64,000 nt of DNA from Janibacter cremeus (GTDB lineage Bacteria; Actinomycetota; Actinomycetes; Actinomycetales; Dermatophilaceae): assembly GCF_029395675.1 (NCBI RefSeq), contig NZ_CP115184.1, positions 2,046,001-2,110,000 of the forward strand, given 5' to 3'. Numbering within the stretch: the stretch's first letter is position 1; each line of letters starts with the position of its first letter. The position numbers were made by a program, and so were the translations under genes. The notes beneath the pieces were generated by a model. It searched no databases, had not been told where the DNA came from, and saw only the letters and a list, made by a program, of their open reading frames with translations. This document shows, piece by piece, positions 16,833 through 47,037 of this stretch.

Positions 16833-16870
16833 GGACTACCCCTTCGTGGACGGCAAGGCAAAAGTGTTCG

Positions 16871-18940: not shown

Positions 18941-18950
18941 TCCGCAGCAC

Positions 18951-18987
18951 GAGGCCCCGCTCCCCTGAGGAAGGGGGGCGGGGCCTC
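18951..18987 (+). terminator. pckA terminator
   Basis: GAGGCCCCGCTCCCC pairs with GGGGGGCGGGGCCTC (15 bp, one G-T) around TGAGGAA, followed by TTCG. It begins ten bases after the pckA stop. Confidence 0.85.
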
Positions 18988-21653: not shown

Positions 21654-22014
21654 TCACCTCTCGGAGTGCCGAACCTGCCCGGAGGCTGGCATCTGGTTGG
21701 ATCCGACTCCATTTCGGCTTGGCCCCAGGGTCGCGACCGGTATGAGTGGACGGCGTCCCCGAGGTGTACCAGCTGCAGTTTGACCGGATGCCCGATGAGA
21801 ACCGGTATGCCCACTATCTGGTCACCACGAACCTAGCGTCCGAGCAGGCCCGATCCGCCGCCGACACCACGAGGCCCTGCACCCCTGACGACGAGGGCAG
21901 GGCCTCGTCGTCGTCGCGTGCGGGGTCTAAGTATTTCGGTGAGTCAGGAGCCTCGTGATACCTCGGCCGGGCAGCGTGCACTGGGAGACCTCTAACGAGC
22001 GTTGCGACGGCTGC
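21654..22014. other. Gene-poor gap with remnant reading frame and hairpin
   Basis: This 361-base gap between the orphan gene and the IS holds no complete gene I can support. An open stretch around 21746-21860 reads ...VYQLQFDRMPDENRYAHYLVTTN..., which looks like the tail of a lost gene; family unrecognised. A hairpin at 21870-21907 (CGAGGCCCTGC / GCAGGGCCTCG) resembles the pckA terminator in sequence. GC content returns to the genome norm here, marking the right edge of the island. Confidence 0.5.
21870..21907. terminator. Hairpin terminator at island right edge
   Basis: CGAGGCCCTGC (21870-21880) pairs perfectly with GCAGGGCCTCG (21897-21907). The flank CACGAGGCCC.GC.CCCCTGA is shared with the terminator at 18951, so the two may be related copies flanking the island or simply members of a common terminator type. 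Confidence 0.6.
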
Positions 22015-22022
22015 GGTTTCGT

Positions 22023-23444: not shown

Positions 23445-23559
23445 GGTTTCGTCCGCCCGTGCTGCGAGGGCGCCCCCTGCCCGATCCCGTGAGCCGGTGG
23501 GCCAGCGCCTCGCGGCCGCCCAACCGCTCGGCGCCCCACTGCCGGACCGGCAGAACAAA

Positions 23560-23592
23560 ACAGCCCGACCGCGTTTTCGCTGGTCGGGCTGT
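23560..23592 (-). terminator. tRNA-Arg terminator
   Basis: ACAGCCCGACC and GGTCGGGCTGT form an 11-bp perfect stem around GCGTTTTCGCT; on the minus strand it is followed by a T-rich tract (TTTGTT). It lies 22 bases past the tRNA 3' end. Confidence 0.85.
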
Positions 23593-23614
23593 TCGTTTCT
23601 GTCTCAACACAGAG

Positions 23615-23687
23615 CGCGCCCGTAGGGATTCGAACCCCAAACCTTCTGATCCGTAGTCAGATGCTCTATCCGTTGAGCTACGGGCGC
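23615..23687 (-). tRNA. tRNA-Arg(ACG)
   Basis: Complete cloverleaf on the minus strand. Acceptor GCGCCCG/CGGGCGC, D-arm AGCTCAACGGATAGAGC, anticodon stem TCTGA/TCAGA with loop CTACGGA (anticodon ACG, read as ICG), T-arm GGGG-TTCGAAT-CCCT and discriminator G. CCA is not encoded. Its 3' end faces the IS and the low-GC island, the usual side for integrative elements, although no integrase or att repeat is seen. Confidence 0.95.
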
Positions 23688-23786
23688 TCGCTGCCGAACT
23701 CGGCCGGCAACACGGATGGACAATACCGGCTCGGGTGCCGAGGACGAAATCGAGCCCTCCCGGGCGTCGGACGGCATACTCAGACG

Positions 23787-24635
23787 GTGGACGACTACCT
23801 GGCGATCAACCGCGCGAACTGGGACGACCGGACCGCGATCCACGTCGACTCCCCCGAGTACGACCTCGCCCGCTACCGCAGCGACCCGCAGGCCATCAGC
23901 GACGTCGTTAGCTTCGACCGGCCCCGCCTCGGCGACCTCGACGGCCTGCGGGCCGTGCACCTGCAGTGCCACATCGGCACCGACACGCTCTCCCTGCACC
24001 GCCTCGGCGCGCAGGTCATCGGTGTCGACCTCTCCCCCGCCGCGGTGACCGCCGCACGCGAGCTGGCCCGGGAGACCGGCGCGGAGATCGACTACGTCGT
24101 CTCCGACGTCTACGGGGCACCCGAGGCGCTGGCCGGGGTCGCCCCCTTCGACCTCGTGTACACGGGCATCGGCGCCCTGAACTGGCTGCCGGACATCGAT
24201 CGGTGGGCTGGCGTCGTGGTGGACCTCCTGCGGCCCGGCGGCCGCCTGCACCTGCGGGAGGGTCACCCGATGCTGTGGAGCCTCGACGACCCGCGCGAGG
24301 ACCGCCTGCTGGCCGTGGAGTACCCGTACTTCCAGACCGAGGCCCCGATGGTCTGGGACGAGGCCTCGACCTACGTAAGCACGGGCGAAGGGAGTGGCGC
24401 CCGAATCGGGGCGACCATCACCCACGAGTGGAACCACGGCTTGGGTGAGATCGTCACGGCGCTGCTCGACCACGGCATGCGCATCACCGGACTCGAGGAG
24501 CACGACAGCGTCCCCTACCTCGCGCTGGGCGACCAGATGGAGCCGCACCCGGACCACCCCGGCGAGTTCCGTCTCACCGAGCGTCGCGAGCGCCTGGCCG
24601 CGAGCTACACCCTGCAGGCGGTCAAGGAGCACTGA
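23787..24635 (+). CDS. Class I SAM-dependent methyltransferase
   Basis: 282-residue methyltransferase. The SAM-binding motif I is VHLQCHIGTDTLSLHRLGAQ, followed by GVDLSPAAVTAARELA (motif post-I) and FDLVYTGIGALNWLPD; then LRPGGRLHLREGHPMLW. The start (NRANWDDRTAIH) and end (RLAASYTLQAVK) match a common actinobacterial family of unknown substrate. GTG 23787 was chosen: a -10-like CATACT at 23775-23780 lies just upstream, so the transcript is probably leaderless. The last 14 bases overlap the convergent alpha/beta hydrolase gene. Confidence 0.85.
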   Translation: MDDYLAINRANWDDRTAIHVDSPEYDLARYRSDPQAISDVVSFDRPRLGDLDGLRAVHLQCHIGTDTLSLHRLGAQVIGVDLSPAAVTAARELARETGAEIDYVVSDVYGAPEALAGVAPFDLVYTGIGALNWLPDIDRWAGVVVDLLRPGGRLHLREGHPMLWSLDDPREDRLLAVEYPYFQTEAPMVWDEASTYVSTGEGSGARIGATITHEWNHGLGEIVTALLDHGMRITGLEEHDSVPYLALGDQMEPHPDHPGEFRLTERRERLAASYTLQAVKEH

Positions 24636-25452
24636 CGCCCACGTGGGCGTCGGCCAATCGGACGAGTGCCTCGACAACGGGGCGCCCGAACATCTGCGGG
24701 TCGTTGTGTCCCACCCTGTCGAGGGCCACCACCTCCTCGAGGCGCCCCGCGGTGTCGGCGACCCGGGCACTCTGCTCGGCCGGCACGATCTCGTCGTCGG
24801 TGCCGTACACGATCGTGGTCGGCACGTCGCTCGAGGTCACGTACGTCTCCACCGGGAACCGGTCGCGCATGAGCAGCCCCACGGGCAGGAAGGGGTAATG
24901 GTGTGAACCGACGTCGACGAAGCTGGTGAACGGCGAGCGCAGCAGCATCCCGGCAGGTGGCCGGTCCGCCTGCAGGCGCGCGACGACGCCCGTACCGATG
25001 GACTCGCCGAGATAGAGCGTCCGCCCGGGCGCGAAGCCCTCGCTACGCAACACCTCCACAGCAGCCGTGGCGTCCTTGGCGAGTCCCTCCTCCGAGGGGT
25101 TCCCGGGGTTGCCCCCGTAGCCGCGGTAGTCCATGAGGAGGACGGTGAACCCTTCGTCCACGAGCGCCCGTCCGATACCGATACGCCCGCCGCGGTTGCC
25201 GCCGTTGCCGGGTGCGTAGAGGACGGCCACCTCGCGGTCGGCGACACCCGCCCCGGGCTCGACGAGCCAAGCGGTCAGCTCCAGGTCGTCACTCGTCGTG
25301 AACGTCACCTCCCGCACGTCGTCGGGCGCGGTGACCGGGGAAGAGTCGGGGACGAAGACGAGCGAGCGCTGGAAGGCCCACGCCGCGCCGACGAGCACGG
25401 CGAGCACACCGACGACCAGCGCCGCAGCGATGCCCACTCGCCTGACCCACAT
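24622..25452 (-). CDS. Membrane-anchored alpha/beta hydrolase (BEM46/ABHD13-like)
   Basis: About 276 residues. One N-terminal hydrophobic helix (VGIAAALVVGVLAVLVGAAWAF) anchors the protein. The hydrolase domain follows: VLYAPGNGGNRGGR (oxyanion strand), MDYRGYGGNPGNPSE, nucleophile elbow YLGESIGTGVVA, acid YGTDDEIVPAEQ and the histidine in DRVGHNDPQMF. This is the arrangement of BEM46/ABHD13 hydrolases of unknown substrate. ATG 25452 was chosen; an in-frame GTG at 25473 would add seven residues. It overlaps the convergent methyltransferase by 14 bases. Confidence 0.85.
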   Translation of the reverse strand: MWVRRVGIAAALVVGVLAVLVGAAWAFQRSLVFVPDSSPVTAPDDVREVTFTTSDDLELTAWLVEPGAGVADREVAVLYAPGNGGNRGGRIGIGRALVDEGFTVLLMDYRGYGGNPGNPSEEGLAKDATAAVEVLRSEGFAPGRTLYLGESIGTGVVARLQADRPPAGMLLRSPFTSFVDVGSHHYPFLPVGLLMRDRFPVETYVTSSDVPTTIVYGTDDEIVPAEQSARVADTAGRLEEVVALDRVGHNDPQMFGRPVVEALVRLADAHVGVSAP

Positions 25453-25492
25453 GGTTCCATCGTTCCATCTCACCGGGGTCGCGGACGTGCAG

Positions 25493-27688
25493 TCAGCCGT
25501 TTCCTAGGAGGTCGCGGGCCGCGGCCTCGACGGTCTCCTCGGAGAGCAGCACCGTCAGAGCGGCGTCGCCCAGCGGGATGAAGCTGTCGTCGCTGGTCAC
25601 CCGAGCGATACGCCCGTCGAAGCGGCCGTCGACCAACGCCGTGACGACACCCTCCGACACCCCACCGGTTCGCCGGGTCTCGTCCACGACGAGGACACGA
25701 CCCGTCTCGTTCGCTTCCCGCAGGATGTCCTCCACCGGCAACGGGCGGAGCCACCGCAGGTCGACGACCCGGACGTGGATGTCCTCGGCCGCCAACGTGG
25801 CGGCGACCCGCAACGACATGTGCAGCCCGTTCCCGAACGTCACGATCGTCAGGTCATCGCCCTGACCGTAAGTACGGGCACGCCCCAGCACCGCTTCTTC
25901 CGAGGCACCGGGGGTCGGGTACGCAGCAGCCCACTCACCGTCACCCGGTTCGTAGAGGTCTGTGGTGTGGTATAGCGCGATCGGTTCCAGGAAGACACTC
26001 GTCGCGCCGTCCGTCCGCGCTGCCATCAGACAGGTCCGCATCATTGCTGCCGCGTCATCCGGCCGGGATGGTGAGGCCACCACAAGACCGGGGATGTCGA
26101 GCAGCACCCCGAGCGCGTTGTCGTTGTGGAAGTGACCACCAAATCCCTTCTGGTAGCCGTACCCGGCGACCCGGACGACCATCGGGTTGGTGTACTGGCC
26201 CTCCGAGAAGAAGGGCAATGTCGCGGCTTCGCCGCGCAGTTGGTCCTCTGCATTGTGGAGATAGGCCAGGTACTGGATCTCCGGCACGGGCAGGAGGCCG
26301 GAGACACCGGCCCCGAGCGCCACCCCGAGGATGGACTGCTCGTCGAGCACGGTGTCGAAGACGCGCGCAGGACCGAGGCGTCGCTGCAGGGTGCGGGTGA
26401 CACCGTAGACACCCCCCTTGCGGGCGACATCCTCTCCGAAAACCAGCAACCCCGGATCCGAGACAGCCCCGTCCAGTAGGGCCCGGTTGACGGCCTGCGC
26501 CACCGTCAACGGCCCCTCGTCCTCGGGTAGCCGCTTGCCGAAGACCACCAGACGGGCATCACGCTCCACGGGACGTCCCGCCGCTGCGGCCACCGTGTCC
26601 GGGTCCGGCCATGCCAGGGGCGTCATCACCTCCGCCGCGGAGGACAGCTTCGGCAGGGCGATGACTTCCTCCGCGGTGGTCCTGACCTCCTGTCGCACGG
26701 ACTCGTACCACTGGACCACATCCTCGGCCGAGAGCGTTCCAGCGGACACCAGCAACCGGGCCGTCGCCAACAACGGGTCCCGGTCCAGATCGTCGGCGAT
26801 CTCAGCCGGACGTCGGTACGCCGACTCCACGTCCGAGCCGGCGTGACCCATCAGGCGAACGGTCCCCAGATGCAGGAATGCAGGCTTGCGCTGAGTCCGG
26901 ACGTAGTGCGCCGCCTCCCGTGACACCCGGAGCGCCTCGGCCAGATCACACCCGTCAGCCTCGAAGTAGGCCAACCCCGGACGCTGCCCGAATGCCGTCT
27001 CGATCCAGCCCTTCGGAGTCTGCACGCTGATCCCGATGCCGTTGTCCTCGCACACGAAGAGCAGTGGCATGGGCAGTCCTTGGTACGACGCCTGGATCGC
27101 CGCGTTGATCGCTCCGACTGCCGTGGAGTGGTTGGCCGACGCGTCACCGAAACTGCAGACCACCACGGAGTCCTCCGGCCAGGAGCACTCGACGCCGAGC
27201 TTGCTCGCCCTGGCCAACGAGAACGCCACTCCCATCGCCCGGGGTAGGTGGGACGCGATCGTCGAGGTCTGCGGGATCACAGCCAGGTCGTGGTGCCCGA
27301 AGACCTTGTGCCTCCCTCCCGAGATCGGCTCGGAGGCAGCACCGACCAGTCCGAGCAAGACGTCGCGGACGGCATCGTGGTCGGGCACCTGGGTCGCCCG
27401 ATGGACGTAGAAGCCTCCGGAGCGGTAATGCAGCAGGGCCGGATCCGTGGGACGCAGAGCAGCAGCCACGGCCGCGTTCCCCTCGTGCCCCGACGAGCCG
27501 ATCGTGTAGAAGCCCTCTCCCCGGCCGCGCAGCCAGCGCGCCGCCAGGTCGAGGTGCCGACTGCGCAGCTGCGATTCGAAGAGTCCCAGCGCCTCCCGGG
27601 GGGCCAACCACTCGGGCAGGCCGGCCCCCGGCTCACTGACGAGGGACCTCGCCCCGTCAGTGAAGGAGGTGTCGATCGGTTCGCTCAT
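25493..27688 (-). CDS. 2-oxoacid dehydrogenase E1, alpha and beta fused
   Basis: 731-residue ThDP enzyme joining E1-alpha and E1-beta. The alpha part has YTIGSSGHEGNAAVAAAL, HYRSGGFYVHR, the ThDP motif GDASANHSTAVGAIN and VRLMGHAGSD. The beta part has VAQAVNRALLDGAVSDPG, LVFGEDVARKGGVYGVT, DTVLDEQSILGVALGAG and the C-terminal VVDLRWLRPLPVEDIL. It resembles branched-chain or oxoadipate-type dehydrogenases; no E2 or E3 is in the window. It is the last gene of an eight-gene unit and starts on the stop of the ALDH7 gene (ATGA). In that context it may convert a 2-oxoacid such as 2-oxoadipate to an acyl-CoA; this assignment is inference. Confidence 0.85.
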   Translation of the reverse strand: MSEPIDTSFTDGARSLVSEPGAGLPEWLAPREALGLFESQLRSRHLDLAARWLRGRGEGFYTIGSSGHEGNAAVAAALRPTDPALLHYRSGGFYVHRATQVPDHDAVRDVLLGLVGAASEPISGGRHKVFGHHDLAVIPQTSTIASHLPRAMGVAFSLARASKLGVECSWPEDSVVVCSFGDASANHSTAVGAINAAIQASYQGLPMPLLFVCEDNGIGISVQTPKGWIETAFGQRPGLAYFEADGCDLAEALRVSREAAHYVRTQRKPAFLHLGTVRLMGHAGSDVESAYRRPAEIADDLDRDPLLATARLLVSAGTLSAEDVVQWYESVRQEVRTTAEEVIALPKLSSAAEVMTPLAWPDPDTVAAAAGRPVERDARLVVFGKRLPEDEGPLTVAQAVNRALLDGAVSDPGLLVFGEDVARKGGVYGVTRTLQRRLGPARVFDTVLDEQSILGVALGAGVSGLLPVPEIQYLAYLHNAEDQLRGEAATLPFFSEGQYTNPMVVRVAGYGYQKGFGGHFHNDNALGVLLDIPGLVVASPSRPDDAAAMMRTCLMAARTDGATSVFLEPIALYHTTDLYEPGDGEWAAAYPTPGASEEAVLGRARTYGQGDDLTIVTFGNGLHMSLRVAATLAAEDIHVRVVDLRWLRPLPVEDILREANETGRVLVVDETRRTGGVSEGVVTALVDGRFDGRIARVTSDDSFIPLGDAALTVLLSEETVEAAARDLLGNG

Positions 27689-29220
27689 ACCGAGAAGTCG
27701 ACCCCTTGGGCCAGCGGGAGCTCCCCCGAGTAGTTGATCGTGTTGGTGGCACGGCGCATGTATCCCCGCCACGCATCGAAGCCCGACTCGCGGCCGCCGC
27801 CGGTCTCCTTCTCTCCCCCAAAGGCACCGCCGATCTCGGCACCGGACGTGCCGATGTTGATGTTGACGATGCCGCAGTCCGACCCTTCGGAGGAGAGGTA
27901 GATCTCGCTCTCGGCCTGGTCCTGCGTGAACAGCGCCGACGACAGCCCCTGCGGGACATCGTTGTTCAGCGCGATCGCGTCCGCGAACTCCTCGTAGTCC
28001 AGAACGTAGAGGACGGGGGCGAAGGTTTCCTGCGTGACGACTTCACTCTGCTCCGGCATCCGTACCACCGCCGGCCGCACATAGTAGGCATCCGTCGCCT
28101 CATCGGCGAGAACCCGCTCGCCACCGACGACGATCTTGCCTCCCGCTGCCTGCGCCTTCTCCAGCGCGGCCTGCATCGCGGCATACGCATCGCCGTGGAC
28201 CAGCGGCCCGACCAAGGTGCCGTGCGCCAGCGGGTCCCCGATCGGCAGACGCTCGTATGCCTCGACAAGTCGCTCTGTCAGTTCCTCGACGATCGAGGAA
28301 TGGGCGATGACCCGGCGCATGGTGGTGCACCGCTGTCCCGCGGTACCCGCTGCAGCGAAGACGATGCCACGCAGGGTCAAGTCCAAGTCCGCGGTCGGTG
28401 ACACGATCGCGGCGTTGTTTCCACCGAGTTCGAGCAGCGACCGACCGAACCGGTTGGCGACGCGCGGCCCTACGGCCCGGCCCATGCGAGTCGATCCCGT
28501 GGCACTGACCATCGCGACACCGGAGTTGTCGACAAGCGACTCGCCGATTTCCGGCCCGCCGACCACCACCTGGCTGACGTCAGCGGGCGCACCCGACTCC
28601 TCGAGCGCGCGCGACAGCAGTGCTGCCGATGCCCATGCGCACAGCGGCGCCTGCTCCGACGGTTTCCAGATGACGGTGTCACCGCATACAAGTGCGACGG
28701 CGGTGTTCCACGACCAGACCGCCACCGGGAAGTTGAAGGCGCTGATCACCCCGACCACCCCAAGCGGGTGCCACGTCTCCATCAGGCGGTGTCCCGGACG
28801 CTCGGAGACCGAGGTACTGCCGTAGAGCTGCCGCGACAGGCCCACGGCGAAGTCGCAGATATCGATCATCTCCTGCACCTCACCCAGCGCTTCCGAGGTG
28901 ATCTTGCCGACCTCAAGACTCACGAGCGTCCCGAGGTCCTCCTTGTGCTCCGTCAGCAGCTCGCCGAACCGCTTGATGACGGCACCGCGCTGGGGTGCTG
29001 GGACCTTGCGCCACTGCAGAAAGGCCTGGTGCGAGCGACGAACCGCCTCGTCGACGTCGTCCGTCGTTCCCCACCGGATCCCTCCGAGGGACTCGCCGTT
29101 GATGGGAGAACGGTGCGGCCGGTCACCGGCAATACGCTCCGGGTCGACGCCGCAGCGCTTCGCGGCATCATGTGCTTGCTGCTGCAAGGACTCCGCCGTC
29201 GGGATCTGGTTGCGGGACAT
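27685..29220 (-). CDS. ALDH7-type aldehyde dehydrogenase (aminoadipate-semialdehyde-like)
   Basis: 511-residue NAD-dependent aldehyde dehydrogenase. The catalytic cysteine is in AGQRCTTMRR, the general-base Glu in LELGGNNAAIV, and ISAFNFPVAVWSWNTAVALVCG, IWKPSEQAPL and SATGSTRMGRAVGP are the family stretches. INIGTSGAEIGGAFGGEKETGGGRESG near the end is the ALDH7 (antiquitin/AmaB) pattern, suggesting oxidation of L-2-aminoadipate semialdehyde (from piperideine-6-carboxylate). Other ALDH7 substrates, such as betaine aldehyde, remain possible. Start ATG 29220. The stop overlaps the E1 gene; the DAO-family oxidase is 18 bases upstream. Confidence 0.87.
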   Translation of the reverse strand: MSRNQIPTAESLQQQAHDAAKRCGVDPERIAGDRPHRSPINGESLGGIRWGTTDDVDEAVRRSHQAFLQWRKVPAPQRGAVIKRFGELLTEHKEDLGTLVSLEVGKITSEALGEVQEMIDICDFAVGLSRQLYGSTSVSERPGHRLMETWHPLGVVGVISAFNFPVAVWSWNTAVALVCGDTVIWKPSEQAPLCAWASAALLSRALEESGAPADVSQVVVGGPEIGESLVDNSGVAMVSATGSTRMGRAVGPRVANRFGRSLLELGGNNAAIVSPTADLDLTLRGIVFAAAGTAGQRCTTMRRVIAHSSIVEELTERLVEAYERLPIGDPLAHGTLVGPLVHGDAYAAMQAALEKAQAAGGKIVVGGERVLADEATDAYYVRPAVVRMPEQSEVVTQETFAPVLYVLDYEEFADAIALNNDVPQGLSSALFTQDQAESEIYLSSEGSDCGIVNINIGTSGAEIGGAFGGEKETGGGRESGFDAWRGYMRRATNTINYSGELPLAQGVDFSV

Positions 29221-29238
29221 GGTGATTGCTCCTTCGAA

Positions 29239-30405
29239 TCAGACGATGTTGAGTTCAGGTCGAATATCTGCACCGTTGAATCTCTCGAGATCCAACGCAC
29301 TGACGTCGATGATCGGGTCACGCTCGAGATACAGGTCGCGCATGACCTCTCCGACCGCGGGCCCCATGAGGAAACCGTGACCGGAGAACCCACACGCATA
29401 GAGGAAGCCCGGGACCGTCCTGGAGCGGCCGATGAGCGCGTTGTGGTCGGGAGTCATCTCGTAGAGACCTGCCCACCCGCTCTGGATGCCGATGTCGGTG
29501 ACGGCTGGAACCCGTCGGTCCATGGCCTCGGCCAAGGAGGGGAGCCAGCCGCTGTCCCGGCTGGTGTCGAAGCTCCACGAGTCCTTGTCCTCCGACATCC
29601 CGATGAGCAGGCCGGGCCCCTCGTTGTGGAAGTAGAGGCTCGACGAGAAGTCGATGGTGAAGGGAGTGTCCGGAGCGAGGTCGGGGACGGCCTCGGTGAT
29701 CAGGATCTGTCGTCGCAGTGGCTCCACGGGCAAGGAGACCCCCGCCCAGGCCCCGACGTCCTTCGCCCACGGGCCGGCAGCACAGATGACCGAAGAGGTC
29801 GCTATTGCCCCGGCCGACGTGTGCACCTTCCGGATCTCCTGACCCTCGGTGGAGATTCCGGTCGCCGCAACACCGGTCACAATGGTCACTCCGGCTGCTC
29901 GTGCACGCCGCGCATACCCCTGCACCACGGACTCCGGGGTGCAGTGACCCGCTCGTGGCGACCAGAGGGCTGCCCGCACTCCAGCCGTGTCGATCAGCGG
30001 AGACAGCCTCTGCGCCTCCTCGGCCGAGATCATCCGGCTGTCCACTCCCATCGCCTGCTGGAGCTCGGCGTTGCGGGTGAACGTCTCGACGTGGTCGTCG
30101 TTGTCCAGCAGGAAGAGGTACCCCACCTGGTGCAGGTCGATGGACTGGTCGAACTCCTGCTCGAAACGTTCGAAGGTGTCCAGACTGTACCTACCCAGAG
30201 CGATGTTGATCTCGTCGGAGAAGACGGCACGGATGCCGCCCGCGGCCCGAGCGGTCGAGCCCTCACCGAGGGTGTCCTTCTCCACGAGGACCACGCGCTC
30301 CACACCTGCACTCGCGAGGTGGTACGCGGTGCTCACGCCCATCACTCCACCGCCGATGATCACGACGTCCGCTTCCGCGGGGAGCGTGTTCTTCCGATTG
30401 TTCAC
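29239..30405 (-). CDS. FAD-dependent amino-acid oxidoreductase (DAO family)
   Basis: 388-residue flavoenzyme of the DAO/sarcosine-oxidase family. The dinucleotide fold is VVIIGGGVMGVSTAYHLASAG with LVEKDTLGEGSTARAAGGIR, where sarcosine-oxidase-type enzymes attach or bind FAD. AAGPWAKDVGAWAGVSLPVEPLRRQIL, MTPDHNALIG and the end GFSGHGFLMGPAVGEVM are typical of the family. It would oxidise a secondary or primary amino acid (sarcosine, N-methyl amino acid, proline or pipecolate type) to an imine. GTG 30405 has AGGAGGA seven bases upstream. It lies between the importer and the ALDH7 gene, fitting imine to semialdehyde to acid. Confidence 0.85.
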   Translation of the reverse strand: MNNRKNTLPAEADVVIIGGGVMGVSTAYHLASAGVERVVLVEKDTLGEGSTARAAGGIRAVFSDEINIALGRYSLDTFERFEQEFDQSIDLHQVGYLFLLDNDDHVETFTRNAELQQAMGVDSRMISAEEAQRLSPLIDTAGVRAALWSPRAGHCTPESVVQGYARRARAAGVTIVTGVAATGISTEGQEIRKVHTSAGAIATSSVICAAGPWAKDVGAWAGVSLPVEPLRRQILITEAVPDLAPDTPFTIDFSSSLYFHNEGPGLLIGMSEDKDSWSFDTSRDSGWLPSLAEAMDRRVPAVTDIGIQSGWAGLYEMTPDHNALIGRSRTVPGFLYACGFSGHGFLMGPAVGEVMRDLYLERDPIIDVSALDLERFNGADIRPELNIV

Positions 30406-30433
30406 GGGGTTCCTCCTGCGCCGTCCTGGGTCA

Positions 30434-31276
30434 TCAGTCGCCGATGAGGCGAGCTTCACCGGGCTCGGCAGCCGACTCGTCCAGATCGTGCTCGACGAGG
30501 ATCTCCGCCAAACGACCGCTCTCGCGCAGCTCGACAATGTCCTCGTTGAAGGCCTCCAGCATGGCTTCGTTGTCCTTGGGCAGCGGGAAGGTGGACTGCG
30601 CGCCCTCCATGGAGGCCGCAACCTCCTTGAACTTGTCCGCGACCACGACGTCGATCGACTCGTCATCCACGTTGTAGACGCCGGAACCGAAGCTGTCCAC
30701 GGCGTAGTCGATCCGGCCGCTCTCGAGGTCCTGGTACATGTTCTGCGGTGAGCTGTAGATCTTCATGGAGTCACCTGTGTAAGCCTCCATGTCCGCCACC
30801 CACAGGTAGCCGTCAACCGTACCGACCTTCTCCCCCTTCAGCTCCGGTATCTCCGTGGGCGCGTCCTTGCCGATGATGGCCATCTGGTCGGTGTAAATGG
30901 GGCCTGTCAGGTTGACGACCTTGGCCCTGTCGGCGGTGCGATACCAGTTGGCGGCCGCGACATCGGCGCGGCCGGTCTGCACGGCCGGGATGACAGCGGA
31001 CGCAGCGGCCGGCTGGACCACGACCTCGAGGCACTCCATCGCGGCGATCTCGTCCAAGATCGCACCGTCGACACCCTTGAGCTGCTCTCCCTCGACCTGT
31101 GTGAACGGCGGAAGGTCGTAGGCCGAGACGGTGAGTTCTCCTTCCGTCATGGTGTTGAACTCGTGGGCAGGTGTGCAGTCCCCGCCGGCACTGTCGCTGC
31201 CGCCCGTGCTGCCACATGCTGAGAGCAGTGCGGTGCTGGTGGCCAGTGCTGCGGCGAGGGCAAGTCGCTTGGACAT
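30434..31276 (-). CDS. Amino-acid ABC transporter substrate-binding lipoprotein
   Basis: 280-residue family-3 solute-binding protein. Signal peptide with lipobox LLSAC near residue 20, then a linker (GSTGGSDSAGGD). The domain shows GELTVSAYDLPPFTQ, LKGVDGAILDEIAAM, AVQTGRADVAAANWYRT, KGEKVGTVDGYLW and YQDLESGRIDYAVD, typical of polar amino-acid binders. Two permeases and one ATPase lie directly upstream, making a complete importer for the substrate of this catabolic cluster. Confidence 0.92.
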   Translation of the reverse strand: MSKRLALAAALATSTALLSACGSTGGSDSAGGDCTPAHEFNTMTEGELTVSAYDLPPFTQVEGEQLKGVDGAILDEIAAMECLEVVVQPAAASAVIPAVQTGRADVAAANWYRTADRAKVVNLTGPIYTDQMAIIGKDAPTEIPELKGEKVGTVDGYLWVADMEAYTGDSMKIYSSPQNMYQDLESGRIDYAVDSFGSGVYNVDDESIDVVVADKFKEVAASMEGAQSTFPLPKDNEAMLEAFNEDIVELRESGRLAEILVEHDLDESAAEPGEARLIGD

Positions 31277-31319
31277 GTTTTCTCCTTGGGTGGGGTGCTG
31301 CGGTTGGAGTCGGTTGGGA

Positions 31320-31973
31320 TTACAGGTGTCGGGACAGACGCATTTCGACCCGTTCAGTCAGGAAGCTCATGGGGATGGTGATCGCCAGGTACATCAACCC
31401 AGCGAGGACGAGCACGCTCATGTAGCGGAACGTCGACGACCCGATGGAGTACGCAGTGGCGAGGAGCTCAGGCAGCGCGATCGTGTAGGCAAGGGCCGTG
31501 GCCTGGAAGATCAGGATGGAGAAGCCCATGAGGGAGGGGACCGCGACCCGCATCCCCTGGGGGATGACGATGAACCGGAGGATGTCGAGCCGGGCCATGT
31601 TGAGTGCTTCTGCGGCCTCAACCTCACCGGCCGGCACGGATTGCAGACCACCCCGGATGATCTCACTCGTGTAGGCGGCGCTGGTCAGGGTCAGTGCTAC
31701 CGCGGCAGAGACGAAGGAGCCGAAGGAGAGACCGAGGTCGGGCAGCCCGAAGTAGACGATCTGCAGCATGACCAGTGCCGGCATGCCGCGCCCGATCTCG
31801 ACGAGGACGATCGCCCCCGCCCGCGCGACCCGGCCGCCCGATCCGTTCGCGATGGCGAGCACGAGACCCAACGGGATCCCTAGACCGAGACTGATCGCCG
31901 CCAATTGCACACTGACGAGAAGTCCTTCGAGGAGGTCGGGGAAGTACGAGCTCCAGTCGGAGATGACGTTCAT
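31320..31973 (-). CDS. Amino-acid ABC transporter permease (second)
   Basis: 217-residue HisM/GlnP-type permease with about five hydrophobic helices (LLVSVQLAAISLGLGIPLGLVLA; AAVALTLTSAAYTSEIIRGGL). The cytoplasmic EAA loop is GEVEAAEALNMARLDILRFIVIPQGMR. The start ATG lies within the stop of the preceding permease gene (ATGA overlap), showing coupled translation. Confidence 0.9.
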   Translation of the reverse strand: MNVISDWSSYFPDLLEGLLVSVQLAAISLGLGIPLGLVLAIANGSGGRVARAGAIVLVEIGRGMPALVMLQIVYFGLPDLGLSFGSFVSAAVALTLTSAAYTSEIIRGGLQSVPAGEVEAAEALNMARLDILRFIVIPQGMRVAVPSLMGFSILIFQATALAYTIALPELLATAYSIGSSTFRYMSVLVLAGLMYLAITIPMSFLTERVEMRLSRHL

Positions 31974-32614
31974 CGCGCCACCCTCTTCTGCAGTCGAGCG
32001 TCCAGGGTTCTGGATCCCCACGCACTGAGGACCGAGAGGACCACGTAGACCGCACCAGCGGTCAGGAAGGGGCCGATCGCATCGGCCTCGGAGCGAGATT
32101 CGACGTTGGCGAAGTAGAGCATCTCGTTCACCCCGATCGTGAAGGCGATGGAGGAATCCTTGAGCAGGCCGATGCCGTAGGTGGCCGCTGCGGGGATCGA
32201 TACACGGACCACCTGCGGGCCGATAATGCGGCTCATCATGTCCGGGGACGACATGCCCAGGGCCATCGAGGCCTCATACTGCCCGCGATTGACCGCCGCC
32301 AGTCCGCCCCGGTAGATCTCTGCGAGATAGGCCGCCGAGATGACTCCCATCCCGAGAATGCCCGCGGTCAGGGGACTCAGCCGGATCCCCATCGGCGCCA
32401 ACCCGAAGAAGATGATGAACAACCAGACGATCGGGGGGATACCGCGCAGGACCTCGATCAGCAACCTCGCCGGGATCCTCGTGATCGCCCACGGCGACCG
32501 GCGGAGCAGGACCAGCGGGATGCCGCCCACCGCGCCCAGGGCCAGCGCTCCGAAGGTGAGCAGAAGCGTCGTCGGCAGACCACGCAATATGGAGAGGAGG
32601 ACCTCGGGCGTCAT
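31970..32614 (-). CDS. Amino-acid ABC transporter permease (first)
   Basis: 214-residue permease of the HisMQ type: [45 protein letters not shown] and EAA loop [24 protein letters not shown]. It overlaps the ATPase stop by four bases and the second permease by four bases. With its partner it forms the heterodimeric membrane channel of the importer. Confidence 0.9.
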
Positions 32615-33366
32615 CGATCCAGCACCGCCCGGAGGAACTGGCGGGTGCGTGCGTTGTCCGGCTGGGAGAAGATCTGCTCGGGTGCGCCCTGCTCGATGAT
32701 CCCACCATCTGCCATCACGACGAGGTGGTCGGAGACGTCCCGCGCGAACTGCATCTCGTGGGTGACCACGACCATCGTCATGCCCTCGTCGGCGAGCTCG
32801 CGCATGACTGCCAAGACCTCGAGGCCGAGCTCGGGATCGAGGGCACTGGTCGGCTCGTCGAAGAGGATCACCTCGGGATCGAGAGCGAGCGCACGGGCGA
32901 TGGCTATCCGTTGTTGTTGACCCCCAGAGCACCGGCTGGGGTACTGGGTCGGTTTGTCGGCGAGGCCGACTCGGTCGAGCAGCTCCAGGCCACGGGCCTC
33001 CGCCTCCTTCCGGGAACGCCCCAGGACACGCTGCTGCGGGAGCACGATGTTCTGCAGGACGGACAGGTGGGGAAACAGGTTGAAGGATTGGAAGACCATC
33101 CCCAAGCTGCGCCTGAGCTGCCTGACGTCGGCACTCTTGATCTTGGTGGACGCGTCGATGGTCGTGGTCTGGACCTTGAAGCTGCCCGAGTCCGGCCTCT
33201 CGAGAAGATTCAAACAGCGCAGCAAGGTGCTCTTGCCGGCCCCGCTGGGGCCGATGACCGCGGCGACCTCTCCCTCCGCCACCTGAAGACTCACGTCGTT
33301 CAGGACGACGTGGTCCCCGTACTGCTTGCAGAGCGAGCGGACATCAATCACGGGCTGCGTCGTCAT
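32611..33366 (-). CDS. Amino-acid ABC transporter ATP-binding protein
   Basis: 251-residue ATPase of the GlnQ/HisP type. Walker [11 protein letters not shown]-loop [11 protein letters not shown], signature CSGGQQQR (the usual L of LSGGQ is C here), Walker [15 protein letters not shown] and switch [10 protein letters not shown]. The start overlaps the stop of the flavin oxidoreductase and the end overlaps the first permease, so the importer is embedded in the catabolic operon. Confidence 0.93.
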
Positions 33367-35336
33367 GCGCGAGACTCCTCGGGCTGTGGGCCGGGTGGGG
33401 TGGTTGGCGGGCGAAGGTTGTCGGCCATCCGTTTGGCGTCCGCGGTCGCATCCGTGACGCGGCGAGGGCGCAGCTGGTCACCGATGGCGAGCGCTTCGAC
33501 CCCTGCGGCCCGGAGCTCCCCGATCAGGGACGTGTCGGGGTCCCCGCCGGCCCATCCCACGAGCACGTCGGCCCGGATCCACTGATCAGGTCCGCCGAAG
33601 ACGCCTTCGAGCCGGACCCGGCCATCGTCGATGCCGACGGGTCGGACCCTTTCGATCGTCGGGATGTCCCTGTCGGCGAGGTGACGGAGCATAGGAACCA
33701 AGGTGTTGGTCCCTTCGCCCTCTCCGACGTGGATCCTGGACGTGGTCAGCACCGCGTCACACCGGCTGGCATCGAGGAAGTCCGCAATGAGGGCGCCGTC
33801 GAGGTCGCCGACCGCATCGTGCACGATGACCCGCCCGGAGGCCGCTCCCCTGGCGAAGACGGCGTCGGCGGACAACACTTCGACACTCCCGTCGGTGGGG
33901 AGATCCACGGGCACGGCGGGGGCGCCGGTGGCCACGACAACGACGTCCGGGCCGAAGGAGAGCACCCGTGCCGCATCGGCGGTGACGCCGAGGTGGATGT
34001 CCACGTCCATCCCGCGCAGCTGCTGCTGCTGCCAGCGGATCCACTTCGAGAACTCCTGCCGGCTCGGGGCCTGTCCCCACTGGGCCATTCGCCCACCAAG
34101 AACGGTCCGACGCTCGAGCAGCGCCACCCAGGCGCCCCGTCGGGCCGCCCGGCGGGCGGCCTCCAGCCCGGCCGGGCCCCCGCCGACGACCACGACGCGC
34201 ATTCCGTCCAAAGGGTCGGCTTCGGTGTCATCGACGGACGTGGCCACATCGGGATTGATCATGCAAGTGAGCGGCCTGCGCAACATCAAGGAGTTCACGC
34301 AGACATTGGCACCCACACACGGTCGAACGTCCGACTCCCGGCCCGATCTGGACATTGGAAGCAGTGCGGGGTCCGCAATTTGCGCGCGGACCATCCCGAC
34401 CATGTCGGCATCCCCCGAGGCGATCATGTCCTCCGCCAGGTCGAGGGTGAGGATACGACCGACCCCGGCTACCGGCACGGCATTCACGTGGTTCCGGACC
34501 GTGCGTACGACCGAGCGGAACAGTCCCGGTCGAGCCGGTGTCGGAGGCCAGTGCCGGGTGCGCGACTCCAGCCGGTTGTTGTTGCCGACCATCACGCTGA
34601 GGTAGTCGATCCGGTCCTCGATCGCCGCAGCGACCCGTCCGGCTTCATCGGGTCGCAGCCCACCGGGCACCAGGTCGTCAGCGCCCAGTCGAACTCCCAA
34701 GGCCTGCTCCGGCCCCAGTGCCTGCCGGACCGCATCCAGTACACGAAGGGGGTAGGCGAGTCGGCGCGCGAAGTCGCCTCCATATTCGTCGTCCCGGTGG
34801 TTGGTCAATGGTGAGAGGAAAGCGGCGAGCAGCAGCCCGTGGGCCATGCTGATCTCCACGCCGTCGAGCTCCCCGCGTCGACAGCGATCAGCCGCACGTG
34901 TGTATTCATCCACGATGCGGTCCAACTGGGCGGTCGTCGCGGCCACCGCCACCTGTCGGCTGACCTCGGAGAAGTCACGCGATGCGCCAAGAACTTCCAC
35001 ACCCTCGACCTCGGTGGGGCCGGGGTGCGCCAGCTGGGCGATCATCCGACCCCCTTCTTCGTGGACCGCCGCCGCGAGACGCTGGTAGCCGGGAACGATC
35101 GATTCATCGATGTTCCACAGGCAGATATCCGCCCACTCCGCGGATGGCGCCACGGGAGTGGCTCCGGTGACCTGCATCGCGGCGCCGGCGCGAGCCCGTT
35201 GCCGGTGATAGGCGATGTACTGATCGGTGACCTGACCGCCGGCGGCGAGACCAGGCTGGTGCGCCGGGAGATACACGCGACCGCGCAGGGTGAACGGCCC
35301 TACATCGATCGGTTCGTCGACGTGACGACGCGCCAT
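33363..35336 (-). CDS. TMADH/2,4-dienoyl-CoA-reductase-like flavoenzyme, candidate N-demethylase
   Basis: 657-residue multidomain protein: an old-yellow-enzyme TIM barrel ([37 protein letters not shown]), an Fe-S linker, and an NAD/FAD-type dinucleotide domain ([38 protein letters not shown]). This is the layout of trimethylamine dehydrogenase, dimethylglycine and stachydrine/N-methylproline demethylases. In the Fe-S motif the ligands read C340-x2-A343-x2-C346-x11-C358: the second cysteine of the TMADH pattern is alanine. ATG 35336 with AAGGAGGTG. First gene of the eight-gene unit, divergent from lysR. Likely role: oxidative N-demethylation or reduction of the imported compound (inference). 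Confidence 0.82.
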
Positions 35337-35448
35337 GACACCTCCTTGAGTCAGTGCGACCGGGATCACATCGCCCGGTAGGTGTCACCCTGCACGGCCG
35401 AACAACACCTCGGAAGGGGGAGGAGCCTCAGGATCGATCGAGGCGGTG

Positions 35449-35461
35449 TAAGGAATCCTTA
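35449..35461. promoter_or_regulatory. LysR-type operator (T-N11-A palindrome)
   Basis: TAAGGAATCCTTA has perfect 6-bp arms around one central base and fits the T-N11-A rule for LysR-type regulators. It lies 68 bases upstream of the lysR ATG and 113 bases upstream of the divergent flavoenzyme gene, the classic position for dual control. Confidence 0.7.
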
Positions 35462-35528
35462 ACGAGAGCTTCATTGCTGTCCCGGCACGCCGCGGTGGTG
35501 GCCCACGAGTGCCGAGATAGCCTGACGC

Positions 35529-36464
35529 ATGCTCAATCCAGTGCACCTGCGCACGCTGCACACGGTGCTACGTACCGGTTCCTTCGCCGACGCTGCACGC
35601 GAACTCGGGTACTCGGGCTCCGCGGTCTCACAGCAGATCACCGCCCTCGAGCGCCAGATTCACATGCGCCTGTTCGAGCGCGATGGTCACGGGGTGAGAG
35701 CCACGCCGACGGCGCATTTCATCAGTGAACGTTCACTCGACGCGCTGGGACGACTCCAGTCGCTCGAGGACGACATCACCCTGCTCCGCCAGGGCAGCAC
35801 CGGACGACTGCGGTTGGGCAGTTTCCCAACCGCCAGCGAACGGATACTCCCGATGGCCCTGTCGCGCTTCCGTCACGAACAGCCCGATATCGAGGTGCGT
35901 CTGGACGAGGGCGAGGAGCCGGAGCTCACCCCCATGTTGGTGGCGCGTGAGCTCGATGTCGCCATCATGTACCGCTATGGTCTCGTGCCGGGCAGGTATC
36001 CACGGGGCTTCCGTGCCCTCAAGCTGCTGGTCGAGGACCTTCTCGTCCTCGTTCCTGCGGATCATCCCTTGTTGGGCGGTTCGTCCGGCATCAGCATCGA
36101 CCAGCTGGAAAGCGAAACCTGGATCGCACCTCGGCTTGGCACCCCGGGTGCGGCCATGCTGCGTCGACTCAGCGCGAATGCCGGCTTCAGCCCCGAGGTC
36201 GCTTACCGGACGAACAACTACGCGACCACCGGCGGTCTCGTACGGGCAAAGATGGGTATCGCGGTCGTCCCCGCGCTCGGGTTCGCCCCACTCGATGGAG
36301 TCGTGCCGCTTCGGCTTTCCGACCATGGTGCCCACCGCGTCGTCATGGCGGTGCGGGCCCCCGCGACGAGTGAGGGCTCGTGGCGGGGGCTGGTGGATGC
36401 ATTGCGGGAGGCGAGCGCCGCCGTGACAGAGGAAGCAATAGGCGTCAGCCTCCCAGAGAGATAA
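35529..36464 (+). CDS. LysR-family transcriptional regulator
   Basis: 311-residue LTTR. The N-terminal helix-turn-helix is LRTLHTVLRTGSFADAARELGYSGSAVSQQITALERQ; the effector domain follows from about residue 90 (GRLRLGSFPTASERILPMAL ... LVPADHPLLGG ... GLVRAKMGIAVVPALGF). It is transcribed away from the catabolic operon, with a T-N11-A palindrome between, so it is the probable inducer-dependent activator of that operon and its own repressor. Its 3' end overlaps the convergent cyclodeaminase gene by 20 bases. Confidence 0.92.
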   Translation: MLNPVHLRTLHTVLRTGSFADAARELGYSGSAVSQQITALERQIHMRLFERDGHGVRATPTAHFISERSLDALGRLQSLEDDITLLRQGSTGRLRLGSFPTASERILPMALSRFRHEQPDIEVRLDEGEEPELTPMLVARELDVAIMYRYGLVPGRYPRGFRALKLLVEDLLVLVPADHPLLGGSSGISIDQLESETWIAPRLGTPGAAMLRRLSANAGFSPEVAYRTNNYATTGGLVRAKMGIAVVPALGFAPLDGVVPLRLSDHGAHRVVMAVRAPATSEGSWRGLVDALREASAAVTEEAIGVSLPER

Positions 36465-37428
36465 GCCGGCCCAGGCCGGCCTCGCGGGCCGCAGGCAGCA
36501 ACGTGGCCGCGGCAGCCGCGTCCTGCGCCCCCAGCCCGACCGTCGTGTAGAGGACCAGCTGGTCACTGCTGGAACGACCGGGAGCCTCCCCTACGCGCAC
36601 GGCGCCCAAGGTTGTCACCTGCTCGTCGAGGAGTGCCCCGGAGCCGAGGGCACTGGCCACCGGCCCAGCATCGGCCCGCGCCGTCTCGATGTCGTCAACC
36701 ACGATGACATCGGCTTGCTCCAGCACGTCCTGGTCGTACTCGAATCTGTCGGAGGCGAACGAGCCGACACTGATCAAGGTCGCTCCTGGGGCCAACCACG
36801 CGGCCTTCACGACTGGCGTCGCGCTGGTCGTGCAGGTCACCACGAGTTCAGCATCACGCACGCACTCCTCCGCCGATGCGGTCACCACGATGTCCAGACC
36901 CGTCTCAGACCGCAGGTCTGCGGCCACGCCTTCGGCCCGTTCGACATCCCGGCCGTGCAGCCGCACCTGATTCAGGTCGTGCGTGTGGTGCAATGCGCGC
37001 ACGTGCGCCACACCCTGGGTGCCCAAGCCGATGATCGCGGCAGTGCGCGCCGAGGGCGCCAATGTCTCCGCGGCCACAGCGGAAGCAGCCGAGGTCCGGA
37101 TCTCGGTCACGCTCGTACCGTCCATGAAAGCCACGGGGGCCCCGGTCTCCTCGTCAAGGACCACGATGACGGCATGAATGGCGGGGAGACCACGTGCGTT
37201 GTTTCCGGGGTGCATGCTTCCGAACTTGCTCACGGCAGGCCCACCCGGGGACAGGCGCGCGGCGTAGCAGAAGGAGACGTCGAGGCCTTGGCCGGGGACG
37301 ATCAGTCGAGGCGGTAGAACCGCCTCGCGGTTGCCGAGCGCCGCGAATGCGTCTCGTTGTGACTGAACCGCCAACGGGACGGTGAGGACCTGACGCACTT
37401 CCTGCTCATCCAGGACGAGGATCGACAT
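36445..37428 (-). CDS. Ornithine cyclodeaminase / mu-crystallin family protein
   Basis: 327-residue NAD(P)-binding protein. It has FGSMHPGNNARGLPAIHAVIVVLDEETGAPVAFMDGT (substrate part), then the Rossmann fold AAIIGLGTQGVAHVRALHH and VRLHGRDVERAEGVA. Family members are ornithine cyclodeaminase, alanine dehydrogenase, and ketimine (piperideine-2-carboxylate/pyrroline-2-carboxylate) reductases. In this cluster a cyclic-imine reductase is the attractive reading, as it would interconvert a cyclic imino acid and pipecolate or proline, but motifs do not settle it. ATG 37428 with AAGGAG. Downstream of, and 26 bases from, the amino-acid dehydrogenase. Confidence 0.82.
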   Translation of the reverse strand: MSILVLDEQEVRQVLTVPLAVQSQRDAFAALGNREAVLPPRLIVPGQGLDVSFCYAARLSPGGPAVSKFGSMHPGNNARGLPAIHAVIVVLDEETGAPVAFMDGTSVTEIRTSAASAVAAETLAPSARTAAIIGLGTQGVAHVRALHHTHDLNQVRLHGRDVERAEGVAADLRSETGLDIVVTASAEECVRDAELVVTCTTSATPVVKAAWLAPGATLISVGSFASDRFEYDQDVLEQADVIVVDDIETARADAGPVASALGSGALLDEQVTTLGAVRVGEAPGRSSSDQLVLYTTVGLGAQDAAAAATLLPAAREAGLGRLISLGG

Positions 37429-37454
37429 TCGGGCTCCTTGGTAGGTGGTGATGT

Positions 37455-38594
37455 TCAGGGACGAAACTGACCACGCAGCCGCATCGCCTCTCGAACGCGT
37501 CGTTGTGCCAGCACCTGCGCAGCTTCCTTGGTGTGAATGTGGTGGCGCGCGCTCTCCTCGATGACCGTGACAGCGTTGGCGCGCATCTTGGTCGAGACCA
37601 TCGCCATGACAGTGTCGGGATCGACGGGGAATGCCGATCGGCGCGCATCCATCGAGTGGGCTGCAGCGACGACTCCTCCGGCGTTGGCGATGAAGTCGGG
37701 AACGACGGCGATGCCGCGCTCGTGCAAGATCTGACGGGCGGAATCGGTGGTCGGGAGGTTCGCTCCCTCGACGATGAGCCGCGGGTGGATCCGCTTGGCG
37801 AGTTCCCCGTCTATGACGTCCTCCAGCGCCGCCGGAACCAGGACGTCGGCATCCGCCTCCAGTACTGCTTCGGGGGGTTGCACCGCCCCATAGGCCGTGA
37901 CGCAATGGTCCCCGTGCTCTGTCCGCAGCTCGATCAACTTCACAACATCAATGCCCTCTGGGTCCGACACCGTTCCTGTGGCGGTCGCCACTGCCACGAC
38001 AACGGCCCCCAGCTCCACCAAGCGCGTGGCCGCTGCCGATCCGACCGCTCCGAAGCCTTGCACCGCGACTCTTGCTCCGACCATGGGGAGACCGATCGAA
38101 GTGGCGGCCGCGTCCGCAGCCTCGGCCACGCCGTACCCGGTGACTCCCAGTTGGTCGTAGGGCAGGCCCCCCAGCGCAGCCGGCAATCCGACTGCAGAGC
38201 CACGGTCACCCAACTCGTCCAGCAGGATCGCTGCATCTTGTTCATTCAATCCGACGTCGAGGCCGAACACGTACTCGGACGGAACTTCGTTGCGCAACGC
38301 CCGAGCAAAGGAGCGGAGGACAGCTTCCTTGTCGCCGGAGCCCGGATCTCCGACGATCCCGGCCTTGGCACCGCCGTAGAACAGGTCTACAGCCGCCCAC
38401 TTCCACGTCATGGCGCGGGCCAACCGCGCCACTTCGCCGACCTGGAGGTCCACTCTCATACGGGTGCCGCCCTTGCCCATGCCCCGAGCAGTGTTGTCCA
38501 CGACCAGGACGCCCTTCATCCCGGTACGACGGTCGGAGACACAGACCACCTTTTCCGGGCCCCACTCATCCATCAGACCGAACACGTCGTTCAC
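37455..38594 (-). CDS. Glu/Leu/Phe/Val dehydrogenase
   Basis: 379-residue NAD(P)-dependent amino-acid dehydrogenase (amino acid + NAD to 2-oxoacid + NH4). The catalytic region is MTWKWAAVDLFYGGAKAGI with the active-site lysine in GGAKAG; coenzyme domain GVTGYGVAEAADAA and VAVQGFGAVGSAAATRLVELGA; VVEGAN-like IVEGANLPTT and VPDFIANAGGVV at the end. Substrate could be Leu/Val/Phe or, in this cluster, 2-aminoadipate. GTG 38594 with GGGAG upstream. It forms a two-gene unit with the cyclodeaminase homologue. Confidence 0.87.
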   Translation of the reverse strand: MNDVFGLMDEWGPEKVVCVSDRRTGMKGVLVVDNTARGMGKGGTRMRVDLQVGEVARLARAMTWKWAAVDLFYGGAKAGIVGDPGSGDKEAVLRSFARALRNEVPSEYVFGLDVGLNEQDAAILLDELGDRGSAVGLPAALGGLPYDQLGVTGYGVAEAADAAATSIGLPMVGARVAVQGFGAVGSAAATRLVELGAVVVAVATATGTVSDPEGIDVVKLIELRTEHGDHCVTAYGAVQPPEAVLEADADVLVPAALEDVIDGELAKRIHPRLIVEGANLPTTDSARQILHERGIAVVPDFIANAGGVVAAAHSMDARRSAFPVDPDTVMAMVSTKMRANAVTVIEESARHHIHTKEAAQVLAQRRVREAMRLRGQFRP

Positions 38595-46955: not shown

Positions 46956-46967
46956 TCCCGGACCACT

Positions 46968-47012: not shown

Positions 47013-47037
47013 ACATGCAGGGGTGCATGCTTGGGGC

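Follow-up and report, generated by a model that had tools for sequence, protein, structure and literature searches.

Gene content and organization of the cluster

The window analyzed here is a stretch of 64,000 nucleotides (C1:2046001-2110000) of Janibacter cremeus, whose 3.5 Mb genome, high in G+C, consists of one contig. It contains a cluster of ten enzyme and transport genes around one LysR regulator gene, extending from position 25493, the end of a gene for a fused 2-oxoacid dehydrogenase E1, to position 38594, the start of an ELFV amino-acid dehydrogenase gene. An earlier note, made from the sequence, had placed these 11 genes and named their classes; the positions of the open reading frames (ORFs) confirmed the former, and Pfam and NCBIfam agreed with every class assigned (Pfam matches of the window proteins were listed at E<=0.001). 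The features are as follows:

25493..27688, minus strand: fused alpha-beta 2-oxoacid dehydrogenase E1 of the pyruvate dehydrogenase/branched-chain 2-oxoacid dehydrogenase (PDH/BCKDH) type, proposed 2-oxoadipate dehydrogenase E1 (731 aa from the Met at 27688; Pfam E1_dh, Transket_pyr and Transketolase_C in one chain)
27685..29220, minus strand: aldehyde dehydrogenase (ALDH), L-piperidine-6-carboxylate (aminoadipate semialdehyde; piperideine-6-carboxylate, P6C) dehydrogenase (Aldedh; NF050084, 802.6 bits)
29239..30411, minus strand: DAO-family flavoprotein, proposed L-pipecolate oxidase/dehydrogenase (Pfam DAO; best solved relative 1y56_B)
30434..31276, minus strand: solute-binding lipoprotein of the importer (SBP_bac_3)
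31320..31976, minus strand: amino-acid ABC permease 1 (BPD_transp_1, HEQRo_perm_3TM)
31970..32617, minus strand: amino-acid ABC permease 2 (BPD_transp_1, HEQRo_perm_3TM)
32611..33366, minus strand: amino-acid ABC ATPase (ABC_tran; polar amino-acid group, below every cut-off)
33363..35339, minus strand: OYE/TMADH-like FMN-FAD flavoenzyme, possible N-demethylase (Oxidored_FMN and FAD/NAD domains; Fe-S motif CVGANVC)
35340..35528, no strand: putative divergent promoter region of 189 bp between the flavoenzyme operon and the LysR gene (gap computed, function inferred)
35529..36464, plus strand: LysR regulator (HTH_1, LysR_substrate)
36445..37428, minus strand: OCD/mu-crystallin family protein, proposed piperideine-2-carboxylate (P2C; imine) reductase (OCD_Mu_crystall)
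37455..38594, minus strand: ELFV amino-acid dehydrogenase, proposed L-2-aminoadipate dehydrogenase (ELFV_dehydrog)

The minus-strand genes follow each other in the order flavoenzyme, ATPase, permease, permease, binding protein, DAO, ALDH and E1, with computed intergenic gaps of -4, -7, -7, 43, 22, 18 and -4 bp. The LysR gene is divergent from the flavoenzyme gene, and the OCD and ELFV genes sit beyond it. Long plus-strand ORFs opposite the cluster genes (e.g. 28768-30447) are presumably high-GC shadows.

Judged from sequence and gene neighborhood, the cluster is probably a LysR-controlled module for the uptake of a lysine-type cyclic amino acid and its oxidation to glutaryl-CoA. The ABC importer would take up this compound, which the flavoenzyme would prepare, possibly by N-demethylation. 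The OCD protein would convert P2C to L-pipecolate, the DAO protein L-pipecolate to P6C, the ALDH P6C to L-2-aminoadipate, and the ELFV dehydrogenase L-2-aminoadipate to 2-oxoadipate. The fused E1, with E2 and E3 components encoded elsewhere, would then form glutaryl-CoA, to be taken on by an unlinked glutaryl-CoA dehydrogenase. The predicted ALDH, ELFV and E1 steps are those best supported by sequence and synteny, which makes the putative rear half, from P6C through aminoadipate and 2-oxoadipate to glutaryl-CoA, well supported; the proposed DAO and OCD steps are moderately supported, and a role for the flavoenzyme in the pathway is weakly supported.

Conservation of the cluster in related genomes

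The earlier note had suggested comparative genomics as a check, and synteny was indeed conserved (loci and genomes are designated below by L and G numbers). All 11 genes occur in the same order in Ornithinimicrobium cavernae (L014), at 71-86% identity, so that the cluster is not a chance run. Two extra genes are inserted there, one for a D-amino-acid dehydrogenase-like protein (DAO2) that adjoins the binding protein gene and one for an SDR, and a glutaryl-CoA dehydrogenase gene lies ca. 0.85 kb from the cluster on the opposite strand. Most of the cluster is kept in three more genomes. The first is represented by L015, whose contig ends in the cluster, at the start of a D-amino-acid dehydrogenase-like DAO2 gene. 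The second, G064, carries the cluster set in two stretches of one contig (L085 and L113), together with a second OCD gene (OCD2); next to the cluster, it encodes a further DAO and a GbcA-like Rieske oxygenase (407 bits, cut-off 670) with reductase. In the third, G025 (L120), the glutaryl-CoA dehydrogenase, ALDH, DAO, E1, ELFV, OCD, importer and LysR genes stand together and the flavoenzyme gene is absent. A glutaryl-CoA dehydrogenase gene adjoins the cluster in L120 and also in L123 (G269), where it is grouped with the E1, ALDH, ELFV and DAO genes. The DAO match of L123 (10645-11792) is split in two adjoining pieces, a frameshift or assembly error. The 12 kb read of G049 (L086) comprises the OCD, flavoenzyme, importer, SDR, LysR and E1 genes, followed by an acyl-CoA ligase-like gene.

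The fused E1 and the 2-oxoadipate step

Nine cluster loci were compared for E1 and for HglS, an enzyme of 2-oxoadipate that is unrelated to E1, and none had both. E1 is present and HglS not seen in five (the window, L014, L085+L113, L120 and L123), and HglS is present and E1 not seen in four (L015, L121, L124 and L138), among which the L121 stretch is short and the L015 contig ends within the cluster. The L015 HglS passed the NF050083 model (709.5 bits, cut-off 600). At the scale of nine whole genomes, HglS exceeded its cut-off in three (G148, G387 and G459) and gave no match in the other six, all of which have E1. Of the four genomes with HglS, three (G387, G459 and G498) had no E1 match in a search of 394 genomes of the class; the fourth, G148, was outside that search. 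The HglS locus L124 also encodes a D-2-hydroxyglutarate dehydrogenase-like protein (402 bits, cut-off 1350), which fits the HglS product as given in PMC7286885.

E1 matches (E<=1e-80) were found in 63 of the 394 class genomes. With the window set aside, 62 loci remained; their flanks, as a rule 7-9 kb to either side and less at contig ends, were surveyed for pathway genes within 6 kb of E1 at preset identity limits. At least one sought gene was found at 32 loci: lysine 6-transaminase (LAT) with its ALDH at 26, glutaryl-CoA dehydrogenase at 27, and all three at 22; HglS was seen within 6 kb at none of the 62. Six of the 26 LAT proteins were scanned and all six passed TIGR03251, the others resting on 68-77% identity; the glutaryl-CoA dehydrogenases owe their name to 74-79% identity with the L014 protein, which among solved structures is closest to enzymes of that name. 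Families f1, f22, f26, f32, f33, f37, f38 and f57 account for the linked cases, which are not independent events, because many are close kin in f38. Since HglS stands in the place of E1 at four cluster loci, and LAT and glutaryl-CoA dehydrogenase are neighbors of E1 at others, the most likely function of the PDH-type fused E1 is that of a 2-oxoadipate dehydrogenase.

The fusion itself, which the earlier note had thought unusual, turned out to be normal for the family: E1 lies in an open frame of at least 665 codons in all 63 class genomes, the match being partial over the query in some (e.g. G338). An apparent ALDH-E1 gene fusion in L152 (1260-codon frame) was rejected, the ALDH being a separate gene (11029-12579) in another frame and the long frame having no ALDH match. 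An alignment of the window E1 with 61 further stretches, a set that differs from the 62 surveyed loci, showed a GDASxNH motif invariant apart from x and an HFHND motif invariant save for one F (62 rows). The second His of HFHND aligns with a catalytic His in the beta chain of PDH E1. E1 resembles PDH/BCKDH E1 in its solved relatives and in curated models; the latter (pyruvate dehydrogenase, transketolase or similar) all matched below their cut-offs. Enzymes of the OGDH type, such as DHTKD1, have a C-terminal domain type of their own in place of Transketolase_C. The window E1 does not belong to this type: it carries Transketolase_C (PF02780), with no OGDH-type C-terminal domain at E<=0.001.

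Several observations speak against a 2-oxoadipate dehydrogenase that leads to glutaryl-CoA. None of the sought genes lies within 6 kb of E1 at 30 of the 62 loci, and the loci L130, L133 and L136, which combine DAO and P6C dehydrogenase, show neither E1 nor HglS. The glutaryl-CoA dehydrogenases of L014 and of J. cremeus scored below the sole NCBIfam model so named (193.5 and 223.2 bits, cut-off 470). The cluster shows no E2 or E3 gene; the genome has E2 domains at other places (C1:791946, 2157335 and 121667), and E3 was not sought. A 98-codon frame of the same genome (C1:2153345-2153572), ca. 4 kb from a full E2 gene, has a match limited to the last part of the E2 catalytic domain and is perhaps a gene remnant.

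The ALDH and ELFV dehydrogenases

With 802.6 bits, the window ALDH passed the model of L-piperidine-6-carboxylate dehydrogenase (NF050084, cut-off 730), and among solved structures it is closest to Pcd (6rtr; 754 bits, residues 9-510). In the ELFV dehydrogenase, a GKGG motif is present, its Lys being conserved in all eight distinct copies (nine rows, L211 repeating L015; the L122 copy sits on a small contig of its own), whereas an unrelated copy in L144 has LGG in its place. In glutamate dehydrogenase, this Lys reads a side-chain carboxylate. The protein is closer to glutamate than to leucine dehydrogenases (182.8 vs. 107.6 bits) and scored below both listed glutamate dehydrogenase models (197.5 and 195.1 bits; cut-offs 620 and 750).

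These results bear on a breakdown of branched-chain amino acids, in which ELFV would be a dehydrogenase of leucine or valine and E1 would serve branched-chain oxoacids. Leucine dehydrogenase belongs to the ELFV family, and E1 does match PDH/BCKDH E1, but the GKGG motif and the nearness to glutamate dehydrogenases argue otherwise, and P6C dehydrogenase, HglS, LAT and glutaryl-CoA dehydrogenase do not fit as neighbors, making this explanation very improbable.

DAO, OCD and the source of P6C

LAT exceeded its cut-off in one of the nine genomes (G049). As J. cremeus itself has no LAT above the cut-off (best match 151.5 bits), its P6C should come by a non-LAT route, and the DAO protein probably makes it from L-pipecolate. 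The nearest solved relative of this protein, 1y56_B, is a chain of an L-proline dehydrogenase complex and has been named an amino acid deaminase in another paper. P6C dehydrogenase was found in 15 of 36 DAO-positive and in 6 of 44 DAO-negative genomes, the latter having no DAO match at E<=1e-120 (Fisher p 0.0056, kinship ignored). In 9 of those 15 genomes, the two genes are within 5 kb of each other, as coordinates compared by eye indicated.

The mu-crystallin-like OCD protein looks like an imine reductase, its best solved relatives being an archaeal alanine dehydrogenase and a pyrroline-2-carboxylate reductase. The Asp that follows the glycine motif is the catalytic residue of ornithine/lysine cyclodeaminase. 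All six distinct cluster copies have Phe or Tyr and no Asp at this position, and an identification of OCD as a lysine cyclodeaminase was rejected for lack of the catalytic Asp. Cluster copies carry a VGS(F/Y) motif, and the VGSF form is common to the window OCD and to OCD2 of L085, which reached 305 bits on the P2C/pyrroline-2-carboxylate reductase model (NF004793, cut-off 322).

Other results count against these two assignments. With 79.4 bits, the DAO protein is far below the AmaA cut-off (NF050086, 600), and it is therefore not filed as AmaA and is at most AmaA-like in action. P6C dehydrogenase gave no match in 21 of the 36 DAO-positive genomes. Among the 17 of the 35 DAO-positive genomes besides J. 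cremeus whose DAO surroundings were read, six relatives at 58-67% identity stand among other genes (L125-L129 and L131). In the DAO tree, linked copies form no single clade; L209 and L210 in it are duplicates of L138 and L124, wrongly labelled as unlinked, and a length filter dropped the two-piece match of L123. The window OCD failed the NF004793 model (160.4 bits), and none of the genes around it in the cluster is a clear source of P2C for OCD.

A D-lysine or mixed lysine route via P2C, resembling that of Pseudomonas putida with different enzymes, is a real though minority possibility. Here, the flavoenzyme or another oxidase would make P2C and OCD would reduce it. The VGSF motif shared with the P2C-reductase-like OCD2 agrees with such a route, as do DAO2 in L014, the start of a DAO2 gene at the L015 contig end, and the retention in L120 of importer, OCD and core without flavoenzyme. 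However, neither the window cluster nor L120 shows a DAO2, and the binding protein is weak on the lysine/arginine/ornithine model (67.1 bits, cut-off 256), as it also is on glutamine binders. For the pathway proposed above, an N-methylated import is possible, and D-lysine or pipecolate has roughly equal odds.

The flavoenzyme and a possible N-methylated substrate

The flavoenzyme combines an FMN barrel with FAD/NAD domains, the architecture of OYE-type N-demethylases (TMADH/DgcA/StcD), and N-demethylation by it is a reasonable guess. Its Fe-S motif, CVGANVC, lacks the second Cys, which is also missing in the demethylase-like group; within the 64 rows of its tree (window included), where the motif was read in aligned stretches, this Cys is absent from 30, present in 25 and not read in 9. 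The enzyme is rare: of 147 relatives (J. cremeus included), 5 gave a match at E<=1e-100, and the 15 other listed genomes of the genus gave none; at E<=1e-120, J. cremeus is alone among the 394 class genomes. The window clade, together with a sister clade from Proteobacteria, groups with one that comprises flavoenzymes encoded beside GbcA-like genes (J. cremeus, G033, G049 and G064), which we take to be DgcA, and a protein encoded on a 1.67 Mb plasmid of Sinorhizobium meliloti MABNR56, a plasmid taken here as the pSymB equivalent. The support of this grouping is 93/79, below the tool's star level. The S. meliloti protein has the same variant of the Fe-S motif and ca. 32% identity to the window flavoenzyme; it may be StcD. 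StcD, an N-methylproline demethylase, is encoded on S. meliloti pSymB according to PMC12239276.

Side by side with these phylogenetic data, sister flavoenzymes at 37-40% identity were observed in Rhodobacteraceae and related bacteria (Planktomarina, Amylibacter and others) and in gammaproteobacteria (L017-L025 and L031); among the cluster proteins, only ABC ATPases matched near them, in some, and the L017 relative from Rhodobacteraceae (40%) stands among other genes. In J. cremeus itself, a GbcA-like Rieske oxygenase (426 bits, cut-off 670), a reductase and a flavoenzyme are encoded in a row at C1:735 kb (L110:7305-11874), likely a glycine betaine locus similar to those of G033 and G049.

In an alternative to which we give less than an even chance, the substrate would be N-methylated (N-methyl-L-pipecolate, from homostachydrine), the flavoenzyme releasing the methyl group as formaldehyde and the remaining steps being those proposed above. 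Consistent with this are the overlap of the flavoenzyme gene with the importer genes, the joining of its clade with the GbcA-side flavoenzymes and the S. meliloti protein, and the GbcA-like oxygenase, reductase and additional DAO that adjoin the G064 cluster. By source name, 2 of the 120 listed relatives are dimethylglycine catabolism A (60 and 56% identical), but most of the named ones are OYE-like reductases or oxidoreductases. Furthermore, the sister cluster L120 is without flavoenzyme, the G064 Rieske protein may be a glycine betaine enzyme, being the only strong match of that genome, and a Piscicoccus flavoenzyme at 62% identity sits among other genes, with a peptide-type binding protein and aldo/keto reductases. 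Thus, of the pathway from an N-methylated or pipecolate-like amino acid put forward in the earlier note, the part from P6C to glutaryl-CoA gained support from the HglS/E1 replacement, the glutaryl-CoA dehydrogenase and LAT beside E1 and the residue checks; pipecolate as the source of P6C is plausible and less certain, and the N-methylated substrate is possible, with L120 and the Piscicoccus relative counting against it.

A one-carbon breakdown of dimethylglycine or sarcosine by the flavoenzyme and a SoxB-like DAO would draw on families that both include such members. Yet the genome has its separate GbcA-like/reductase/flavoenzyme locus (C1:735409), and no role would be left for the other cluster genes, so that this explanation seems highly unlikely.

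Relation to known lysine pathways

The P. putida route proceeds through AmaA, AmaB and HglS, with a transaminase at the aminoadipate step. It has the same intermediates as those proposed for the cluster (pipecolate, P6C, aminoadipate and 2-oxoadipate). Unlike it, the cluster has a DAO that is not AmaA by model, E1 in place of HglS, an amino-acid dehydrogenase instead of the transaminase, and an operon that includes an ABC importer and the flavoenzyme. Intermediates of the P. putida D-lysine/pipecolate route are given in PMC7286885 and PMC5653290. Human lysine breakdown (ALDH7A1, DHTKD1 and glutaryl-CoA dehydrogenase) has the glutaryl-CoA end point in common, and the cluster ALDH belongs to the ALDH7A1 family, whereas its E1 is of the PDH/BCKDH type with Transketolase_C and DHTKD1 of the OGDH type. 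The actinomycete Lat-Pcd branch is represented by the 22 E1 loci that unite E1, LAT, an ALDH and glutaryl-CoA dehydrogenase; the window genome differs in that, short of a LAT above the cut-off, DAO would feed P6C. According to PMC6746716, mycobacteria kept only the first two reactions of this branch. The window flavoenzyme is of the same wide family as StcD of S. meliloti stachydrine breakdown, where the substrate is five-ringed; the window cluster shows no Rieske gene.

In actinomycetes, the initial conversion of lysine to aminoadipate is known and what comes after it is less clear; the E1 neighborhoods provide a concrete candidate for the conversion of 2-oxoadipate to glutaryl-CoA. The gene set points to an unrecognized bacterial enzyme for a key step of lysine breakdown; if true, E1 would be a third solution to the 2-oxoadipate step, besides HglS and DHTKD1. 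The rear half would thus give a new assignment for a widespread E1, with an N-methyl front end as a possible addition. More tentatively still, and with odds that we regard as poor for the whole, the fused PDH-type E1 would form a bacterial 2-oxoadipate dehydrogenase class apart from DHTKD1, completing the aminoadipate route of many actinomycetes and here forming the last step of a so far undescribed conversion of N-methylated pipecolate (homostachydrine type) into glutaryl-CoA. In the literature on 2-oxoadipate and glutaryl-CoA in actinomycetes, no paper was found whose title or opening abstract lines dealt with such an E1, in a coverage that mostly left out subscription papers, so that absence from print is not established; that on homarine, proline betaine and pipecolic acid betaine yielded nothing on this pathway.

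Genomic surroundings

An ISL3-type transposase ORF (window 22133-23687) lies to the left of the cluster and reaches into tRNA-Arg(ACG), and tRNA-Ser(GCT) is located ca. 200 bp to the right of the cluster. The cluster may be an acquired island; a search for its borders found no 13-mer common to the tRNA-Ser end and positions 18000-26000. A 789-codon ORF (19284-21653) that has no Pfam match at E<=0.001 falls partly within a stretch of lower G+C. The G+C content of the cluster is 66.6%, lower than that of positions 1-20000 (69.6%) and 44000-64000 (71.2%).

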